From Thiohalocapsa sp. (GTDB lineage: Bacteria > Pseudomonadota > Gammaproteobacteria > Chromatiales > Chromatiaceae): a stretch of 64,000 nt of DNA. Positions 30,545 through 31,738 of the stretch are shown in pieces. The translations under genes were made by a program, and so were the position numbers. The notes below the pieces were generated by a model. It was not told the DNA's origin, made no database searches, and saw nothing but the letters and a program-made list of their open reading frames with translations. Each line of letters begins with the position of its first letter. Position 1 is the stretch's first letter. The stretch covers positions 124,001 through 188,000 of the forward strand of contig JAIPFF010000001.1 in the NCBI GenBank assembly GCA_021736785.1. Direction: 5' to 3'.

Positions 30545-30599
30545 AGACGTGTGTTATAAACCGAGTGCCGATCGGCAAACTCAAAATGGAGAAACCGCT

Positions 30600-30797
30600 A
30601 TGACCAAGAAAGTGAAGCTCGCTTCCCTGTCCGCCGCTGCTCTGCTGAGCGCTTCCCTGCTCGGCGGCTGCGCCACCGATCAGGAAGCTCGTGACATGGC
30701 CCAGGCCGCTATGGACGCCGCCAACGCGTCCCAGGCTTGCTGCGAGGCCAACGAGGAGCGCATCAACCGCATGTATCAGAAGATCATGTCCAAGTGA
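30600..30797 (+). CDS. OprI/Lpp-like alanine-zipper outer-membrane lipoprotein
   Basis: A 65-residue precursor. The signal peptide (MTKKVKLASLS onward) ends at lipobox LLGGC, making Cys24 the acylated residue. The 42-residue mature protein has an Ala-rich heptad-like region (EARDMAQAAMDAANASQA) and ends ANEERINRMYQKIMSK, closely like Pseudomonas OprI. The C-terminal lysine is where such lipoproteins are joined to peptidoglycan. It has two adjacent cysteines (47-48) not typical of Lpp/OprI. GGAGA lies about 8 nt before the ATG. The gene converges with, and overlaps, an L,D-transpeptidase gene of the kind that makes this linkage. It is much shorter than OprI (83). Confidence 0.85.
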   Translation: MTKKVKLASLSAAALLSASLLGGCATDQEARDMAQAAMDAANASQACCEANEERINRMYQKIMSK

Positions 30798-31738
30798 TGC
30801 CAGCTCATTGAGCCGCGCCGGCCTCCCACGAGTCGTGGCAGGCCGGCGTTCTCCTCGCGGGCCCGTTTCACTTCCTCCCAATTCACCACCACGCCATCGG
30901 CGTTGGCGATCTCCGCCGGGATGATGTCCCGGACCGGCTTGTTCAATGCCTCGTCCGTGTGCGCATTGACCTCTATGAAGAGCTGATCCCCGAGCCAACC
31001 GACCTTAAAGGGCTGATCGAGGATTCTCACCGACGTTCCCTTCTCCACCTTGCCGAACAGGCGCTCGATGTCTTCCGGGTACATCCGCGTGCAGCCGTGG
31101 CTGACCTGCATACCGACGCCCCAGGGCTTGTTGGTGCCGTGGATCAGATAGCTGGGGTTGCTGAGCCTGAGTGCGAACTGGCCCAGCGGATTGTCGGGAC
31201 CGGCCGGAACCACTGCCGGCAGAATCTCTCCCTTCGCCGCATGCTCGCGTCGGATCGATTCGGGCGGCGTCCAGGTCGGATCCTTGATCTTTTCGATAAT
31301 CTTGTAGGTGCCGACCGGCGTCTCCCAGCCCTCGCGGCCGGTGCCCACCGAGAACGTTTCGATCTCGGTGGGCGAGCGGAAATGGTACATGCGCTTTTCC
31401 GCCAGGTTCATCACCAGCCCCTCGCGCGGCGCATCCGGCAGCACGTGCTGCGCCGGCACCAGTACGTCCGATCCATCGCCGGGCACCCACATGTCCACGG
31501 TCGGATTGGCCTGTTTCATCTCGTCGTAACCGAGACCATGGTGGCGGCCGATGTCGAGCAGGGTATGCTCGGCCTTCGCCTTTACATAGAACGGCGTGCC
31601 GATAACACTGTCGTTCGGGTCGGCAAGGCGGTAGACCTCGGCCGCGGCGAGGGTCGGGGTCAGCACTGCGGCGAATGCACACAGGACCGTGCGGTGCAGG
31701 AAACGGGCTCGTGTCGTGCGCCGATCGTCAGAGTTCAT
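30776..31738 (-). CDS. L,D-transpeptidase (ErfK/YbiS/YcfS type)
   Basis: A 320-residue periplasmic YkuD-domain enzyme. A signal peptide is present (VLCAFAAVLTPTLAAA). A LysM-like segment (about 55-98) is followed by the catalytic domain with HGT at 200-202 and SHGCTRM with nucleophile Cys216. Enzymes of this group attach Lpp to meso-diaminopimelate or make 3-3 cross-links. The adjacent OprI-like gene favours the first. GGGGGAG precedes the start. The last 22 bp overlap the convergent lipoprotein gene, and the 3' end contains a terminator-like hairpin. Confidence 0.94.
   Translation of the reverse strand: MNSDDRRTTRARFLHRTVLCAFAAVLTPTLAAAEVYRLADPNDSVIGTPFYVKAKAEHTLLDIGRHHGLGYDEMKQANPTVDMWVPGDGSDVLVPAQHVLPDAPREGLVMNLAEKRMYHFRSPTEIETFSVGTGREGWETPVGTYKIIEKIKDPTWTPPESIRREHAAKGEILPAVVPAGPDNPLGQFALRLSNPSYLIHGTNKPWGVGMQVSHGCTRMYPEDIERLFGKVEKGTSVRILDQPFKVGWLGDQLFIEVNAHTDEALNKPVRDIIPAEIANADGVVVNWEEVKRAREENAGLPRLVGGRRGSMSWHHLDMIF
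30816..30848 (+). terminator. Long hairpin after the lipoprotein gene, inside the L,D-transpeptidase 3' end
   Basis: CGCCGGCCT (30816-30824) pairs with AGGCCGGCG (30840-30848); one C/C mismatch, then CCAC/GTGG, leaves a 5-nt loop. It starts 19 bp after the lipoprotein stop and is followed by TTCTCCTC rather than a pure T-tract. It lies within codons for the C-terminal tail of the transpeptidase on the other strand. Confidence 0.7.

Follow-up and report, generated by a model that had tools for sequence, protein, structure and literature searches.

A short, cysteine-paired Lpp/OprI-like lipoprotein and its convergently encoded L,D-transpeptidase in Thiohalocapsa: a likely anchoring pair

A 64,000-nucleotide stretch from the 5.2-Mb genome of Thiohalocapsa sp. 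(the window, lying within contig C50) carries a small lipoprotein gene, lpp, and an L,D-transpeptidase gene that face each other tail to tail. The features, in window coordinates, are the following:

30600 to 30797, forward strand: lipoprotein gene of the Lpp/OprI-like alanine-zipper kind (open reading frame, 65 amino acids), with its signal peptide at 30600-30668, mature part at 30669-30794 and stop codon at 30795-30797
30738 to 30743, forward strand: codons of Cys47 and Cys48, at positions -19 and -18 from the C-terminus, read from the sequence
30792 to 30794, forward strand: codon of the C-terminal Lys65, the expected attachment residue by analogy with E. coli Lpp and P. aeruginosa OprI
30776 to 30797: convergent overlap of 22 bp, encoding the last six residues and the stop codon of the transpeptidase
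30815 to 30849, forward strand: GC-rich hairpin of 15 pairs, 17 bases past the lpp stop codon and within the codons of the transpeptidase
30776 to 31738, reverse strand: L,D-transpeptidase gene of the YkuD family (open reading frame, 320 amino acids; PF03734, 86.5 bits)
31022 to 31417, reverse strand: YkuD catalytic domain, residues 108-239 (PF03734, E 3e-24)

The lipoprotein starts at an ATG at 30600 (forward strand), and its lipobox LGGC was placed by inspection at residues 21-24, with Cys24 as the lipid-bearing residue. The mature protein, CATDQEARDMAQAAMDAANASQACCEANEERINRMYQKIMSK, has 42 residues and ends in QKIMSK. The original prediction of a 42-residue mature alanine-zipper lipoprotein ending in lysine and carrying Cys47-Cys48 is thus borne out by the open reading frame and its sequence; its estimate of about half the length of OprI or Lpp was too low, as 42 residues amount to approximately 72% of E. 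coli Lpp (58) and 66% of the Pseudomonas OprI type (64). Core positions -4, -8, -11, -15, -18, -22, -25, -29, -32 and -36, counted from the C-terminus, are occupied by I, M, I, N, C, S, A, A, A and A, respectively, and the protein has the small residues at a and d that characterise a heptad zipper, of which the oligomer is predicted. Against PF11839 it scores 21.2 bits, below the cut-off of 23.1, with a match that covers only profile positions 30-69 of 69, i.e. the C-terminal half, and against NF040598 it scores 24.4 bits, also below the cut-off (43). The Allochromatium orthologue reaches 30.7 bits with PF11839, above the Pfam cut-off. A 12-row profile found no second Lpp-like gene in the genome, the other four matches scoring 12.8-18 bits. 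No promoter was called at lpp by the promoter scan; TGTTATAAA, upstream of the gene at 30552-30560 (forward strand), resembles what we take to be an extended -10 box.

The length of the zipper was compared across 157 distinct Lpp-like precursors (138, plus 19 added later). The 27 shortest, with 41-43 mature residues, all come from one group of Chromatiaceae, while the others have 52-104; sister genera of the same family carry a long form of 63-80 residues (12 loci). Among the mature lengths above 43, 62 of 130 equal 3 modulo 7 (chi-square 128, uncorrected for kinship, so that a p value would not be meaningful), and such steps of seven are as expected if whole heptads have been gained and lost. 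A C-terminal lysine is present in 156 of the 157 sequences. The sole sequence lacking it, L174 (G119), ends in Arg after Lys-Gly, and short C-terminal insertions or extensions are seen in L229 (G029), L174, L130 and L132 (...MADAMAK, ...MRKGR, ...SSK, ...MKSK). Among the matches listed from open PMC papers, none ties Chromatiaceae to Lpp.

On the reverse strand the transpeptidase reads from an ATG at 31738 to a stop codon at 30776-30778, and begins with what, judged by eye, is a signal-like sequence. Its active site consists of His200 and Ser213-His-Gly-Cys216-Thr-Arg218 (SHGCTR), i.e. the His and SxGCx(R/N) arrangement of YkuD domains, with H200, S213, G215, C216 and R218 invariant across 11 aligned enzymes. 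The Thr of this motif (31085-31102, reverse strand) occupies a position described as hydrophobic in (S/T)xGCh(R/N); it is shared with L015, L018, L022 and L023, and absent from the other aligned enzymes. An AlphaFold2 model built from 24 sequences has a pLDDT of 87.3 and, among longer stretches, falls below 50 only in the signal region and in residues 314-320. The solved fold closest to it is 4lzh, a K. pneumoniae L,D-transpeptidase (TM 0.74, over most of its length); by sequence, the top solved structure is 9tyw_A (E 4e-74), followed by 4lzh. The best NCBIfam match is the LdtE model NF047955, at 196.6 bits against a cut-off of 480; assignment to LdtE proper was rejected on this score, and the sequence marks the enzyme as a relative of LdtE, not LdtE itself. 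LysM was not found in the window enzyme at E up to 1, whereas E. coli LdtE shows it.

The last residue of the motif separates two activities, Arg being typical of transpeptidases and Ala of DpaA-type hydrolases, according to excerpts of PMC10434034. The window enzyme ends its motif in Arg instead of following the SxGChA pattern of DpaA/LdtF hydrolases, and NF040599 is not among its matches; assignment to that class was accordingly rejected. YkuD enzymes that release the lipoprotein do exist, and the genome holds two candidates for the role, but with SHGCTR in place we give hardly any credence to the idea that the window enzyme is one of them. The candidates are L005 (G000:C40, TDGCIA) and L008 (G000:C95, TEGCIA), which match the DpaA model below its cut-off and have motifs ending in Ala. 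By sequence these could be releasing enzymes, which suggests that attachment and release enzymes may stand side by side in this genome.

As had been predicted, the genes converge and share 22 bp, positions 30776-30797 being common to both open reading frames. An identical spacing of -22 occurs in 22 of 31 distinct short-form loci; in the remaining nine, eight of which are from the same genus, the genes lie 209-965 bp apart, and the spacing in long-form loci is always 0 bp or more. Most relatives of the genus have such a spacer (loci with spacers: L013-L017, L019-L021, L028), in which no gene was recognised, and most of these loci also have strong hairpins 3' of lpp. The enzymes of spacer-bearing loci end in -WHRLDSVF or similar, close to the -WHHLDMIF that the overlap dictates, and because non-overlapping enzymes still end in this manner the overlap is probably the older state, later undone. 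A search of these spacers for the remnant of another lpp copy found none. Since the tail is disordered in the model, the overlap may cost the enzyme little.

The hairpin downstream of lpp has a z of -3.55 against dinucleotide shuffles. Over 15 overlapping species 84.9% of its pair cells are kept, as against 36-51% for slid versions, and double-sided changes number 12, compared with 4.4 in shuffles, of which 0 of 500 were as high. It may act as the lpp terminator, or mark the end of lpp mRNA or protect it; this is suggestive only, because the codons of the enzyme also constrain the hairpin, its T-run is weak and the best fold of L073 differs from it. The terminator scan did not call it, as it lacks a T-run.

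The overlap physically fixes the two genes together in the 22 loci that have it, and one could therefore suppose that the lipoprotein is free, not attached, and that the gene order is a frozen accident which the overlap, together with the hairpin that the genes share, has perhaps maintained. However, the pair persists where overlap is absent, in the nine spacer-bearing short-form loci and in the long forms alike, and the near-universal terminal lysine also speaks for attachment. We regard a free lipoprotein as very improbable.

The distribution of the pair was followed from both of its members. Among 56 relatives searched (E up to 0.01), the lipoprotein is present in 20, every one of which has a YkuD gene convergent with it at the best locus. 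A second search of the family, which leaves out one weak match (G011), covered 38 genomes, 29 of them with a match; nine of these were already in the set, and all 19 new loci that were examined have the convergent enzyme. A class-wide search of 276 genomes with NF040598 matched 154, 71 of them above cut-off, and was sampled as 74 loci from 72 genomes. Here the convergent enzyme was found in 58 of the 72 genomes (57 by script, plus L188 by coordinates), or 58 of 68 once four loci cut within 300 bases are excluded. Among the 14 genomes without it, the other ten loci (L175 from coordinates) do not end within 300 bases, and so there are real exceptions to the pairing. Starting from the enzyme, 59 of the best 80 named loci have a convergent lipoprotein gene, among them that of Pseudomonas oryzagri (L144, OprI-type gene, 157 bp apart). 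A few contigs are common to more than one of these samples. In E. coli MG1655 lpp and ldtE are likewise convergent, 63 bp apart. Because both families are conserved, and the convergent order holds in every one of the 20 relatives with the lipoprotein, the pair is more than chance. It is widespread in the samples and is therefore an old arrangement of Gammaproteobacteria, not a peculiarity of the Thiohalocapsa genome.

Does the neighbouring enzyme fasten the lipoprotein to the cell wall? We infer that it does from synteny and from the precedent of LdtPae2. In P. aeruginosa, deletion of ldtPae2 alone abolished OprI anchoring, as reported in excerpts of PMC10434034, and since LdtPae2 has been published as the OprI-anchoring enzyme, and the window enzyme is likely to be its counterpart by position and family, an anchoring pair is the likely interpretation. 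The retained catalytic residues, the motif-final Arg, the finding of a single Lpp-like gene in the genome and the fold match of the model to a solved L,D-transpeptidase are all in favour. The genome also has nine YkuD matches, one of which, the paralogue L003 (G000:C33), is 49% identical to the window enzyme over the enzyme part. L003 is LdtE-like, with a lipobox and SHGCVR of its own, has no neighbouring lipoprotein gene, and groups in the tree with other enzymes that have none. E. coli LdtE adjoins lpp and is described as a cross-linking enzyme, anchoring in that species being credited to LdtA, LdtB and LdtC, not LdtE (excerpts of PMC12729407), so that position does not guarantee activity. 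This, together with L003, holds down the strength of the anchoring claim, as do the scores of the lipoprotein below the curated cut-offs and the fact that our literature search found no biochemical evidence from any Chromatiaceae. Of the dedicated enzyme-substrate pair originally proposed, the pairing is well supported, by the conserved convergent order and by published OprI anchoring by LdtPae2; the word dedicated does not fit so well with L003 and with the cross-linking described for LdtE.

These same facts suggest an alternative, in which the neighbour mainly makes 3-3 cross-links in the manner of LdtE, and L003, or both enzymes, would anchor the lipoprotein. The NCBIfam result given above, with LdtE as the best match, fits this, as do the cross-linking described for an lpp neighbour in E. 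coli and the lipobox, SHGCVR and 49% identity of L003. However, the sole OprI-anchoring enzyme of P. aeruginosa, LdtPae2, belongs to the lineage of ErfK, YbiS, YcfS and YnhG (excerpts of PMC10434034), and the Pseudomonas enzyme of our set (L144) adjoins oprI. In a tree of 126 enzymes, which is weakly resolved at depth and has the Chromatiaceae enzymes as one starred clade, LdtA, B, C and E of E. coli form a single clade (SH-aLRT 100), and the E. coli division of labour may for this reason be a late enterobacterial split after duplication. The label of being lipoprotein-adjacent needs 14 changes on the same tree, against 23.1 in shuffles. We consider a mainly cross-linking neighbour unlikely, and anchoring by the window enzyme the better account. 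Excerpts of PMC10434034 state that anchoring and cross-linking enzymes are indistinguishable by lineage; where lineage alone is insufficient, the conserved gene pair offers a simple means of guessing the anchoring enzyme among many L,D-transpeptidases.

The second distinctive trait of the lipoprotein is its cysteine pair. Besides the lipid-bearing residue, exactly two cysteines are present in 97 of the 157 sequences and none in 60; not one of the 157 has one or three. The 19 sequences added after this rule had been noticed conform without exception, 17 having a pair and 2 having no extra Cys. The pair lies at -19,-18 in 71 sequences, and is shifted by one or two tail residues in 3; a CxxxC at -15,-11 occurs in 16, and shifted by four in 1; -15,-14 is found in 5, and -4,-3 in 1. 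All 27 distinct short forms have conserved it. The core register (-18, -15, -11, -8, -4) was derived from the 3-4 spacing seen in the window protein, aligned with E. coli Lpp; by this register Cys at -18 would occupy the a/d core of the zipper, and every class of pair puts at least one Cys in the presumed core. In 58 Cys-free proteins position -18 is mostly Ala (35) or Ser (14). Presence and absence of the pair require at least 8 changes on the enzyme tree, counted before the last 19 sequences joined. It appears from this distribution that a lone thiol is avoided and that pairs arose at several sites.

All-or-none pairs at several sites, with no lone thiol, fit what interchain disulfides would require, and suggest such bonds or else a metal site. 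The proposal that the pair could form disulfide-linked oligomers has gained strong comparative support, since all 97 Cys-bearing sequences have two and none of the 157 has one; the bond itself was not seen. With two adjacent cysteines per chain, a bundle of three chains could be closed by three bonds that run from chain to chain in a ring, an arrangement found in some bundles of collagen and matrilin. A Crick model of a parallel trimer, too crude to decide on disulfides, puts a-a and d-e CB atoms 4-6 Å apart and g-a 6-8 Å. A rival to this one step is that the pair serves instead as a binding site, within the core of the zipper, for a metal or a redox cofactor. Cysteines at a/d of three-stranded coils can bind metals, and three chains would bring six thiols together, but the periplasm oxidises thiols, and the occurrence of pairs at several spacings (CC, CxxxC) fits disulfides at least as well; we think a metal site somewhat unlikely. 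No literature on Cys pairs in Lpp or OprI was found among open PMC papers. From the all-or-none rule it would seem that disulfides link many tethers into oligomers, something that could not have come to light in E. coli or Pseudomonas, where the pair is missing. As a separate observation, a 181-aa open reading frame in a relative of the same genus (L032; G009:C23:62730-65849, match 1501-1620) has at its end a sequence almost identical to the Lpp zipper, Cys-Cys included; it has no recognised lipobox and its last residue is Arg, and it is either a fusion of a zipper with some other protein or the remnant of a gene.

Taken together, we have good though not full confidence in a reading in which the neighbouring L,D-transpeptidase anchors a short tether at Lys65, the zipper narrows the gap between outer membrane and wall, and the Cys pair is probably disulfide-bonded. 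The convergent YkuD enzyme, acting in the periplasm, would remove D-Ala4 from a tetrapeptide stem and couple its meso-diaminopimelate to the Lys65 side chain, thereby creating a covalent tie between outer membrane and peptidoglycan, and in the oxidising periplasm Cys47-Cys48 would most likely disulfide-bond the zipper chains. With a helix rise of 1.5 Å per residue, a zipper of 42 residues is about 2.4 nm shorter than the 58 of Lpp, and the outer membrane would stand approximately 2-3 nm nearer the wall than with E. coli Lpp if the gap is spanned likewise. The linker of Pal, taken from the lipid Cys to the OmpA-like domain and read in 46 of 46 loci, gives no sign of a narrower gap (median 53 in 18 short-Lpp genomes and 55.5 in 10 long-Lpp genomes of the family, p 0.16). 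Lpp length is used as a ruler for this gap, and a natural tether of 41-43 residues beside longer-tethered sister genera is a ready-made experiment. More tentatively, as a possibility that we do not yet call probable, a large class of gammaproteobacterial Braun-type lipoproteins may be disulfide-stapled through at least one core Cys, from pairs that arose at four or more sites, with the Chromatiaceae tether cut to about six heptads and an exceptionally tight spacing. If stapling is true, each tether between outer membrane and wall would be a disulfide-closed bundle.

Among known systems, OprI/LdtPae2 of Pseudomonas aeruginosa shares the alanine-zipper lipoprotein with terminal Lys and the YkuD enzyme. 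In P. oryzagri, from whose genome (not that of P. aeruginosa) the gene order is taken, the enzyme is 44% identical to that of the window, but OprI has 64 mature residues, no extra Cys and no gene overlap, as against 42 residues, a Cys pair and a 22-bp overlap. Lpp/LdtE (YnhG) of E. coli is likewise a convergent pair, with Lpp as the model tether, also ending in Lys; unlike the window protein, Lpp (L035) is 58 residues long in its mature form and lacks the Cys pair. The long Cys-paired lipoproteins of Gammaproteobacteria (NF040598/PF11839; L074, L086, L223) resemble it in the C-terminal block, the Cys pair and the convergent YkuD gene, and differ in mature length (57-91 versus 41-43 in short forms). 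One long Cys-paired Lpp, L090 (CAMCBY010000080.1), is on a contig titled Klebsiella pneumoniae; in the tree its enzyme groups with unnamed Gammaproteobacteria, and the title of this MAG is probably wrong. The laboratory constructs Lpp delta 21 and Lpp +21 show that a zipper can be made shorter or longer in steps of entire heptads (excerpts of PMC12274547 and PMC8824477). For IPR016367, a set different from the 157 sequences used here, excerpts of PMC8824477 report that natural lengths vary little, the precursor having 78 residues in most species; that of the window, with 65, is shorter. The system is thus of a known kind, a likely anchoring pair in the manner of OprI/LdtPae2, whose zipper is the shortest in the set and whose Cys pair is conserved; the pairing itself is ordinary, and it is the short tether and the all-or-none Cys rule that look new.
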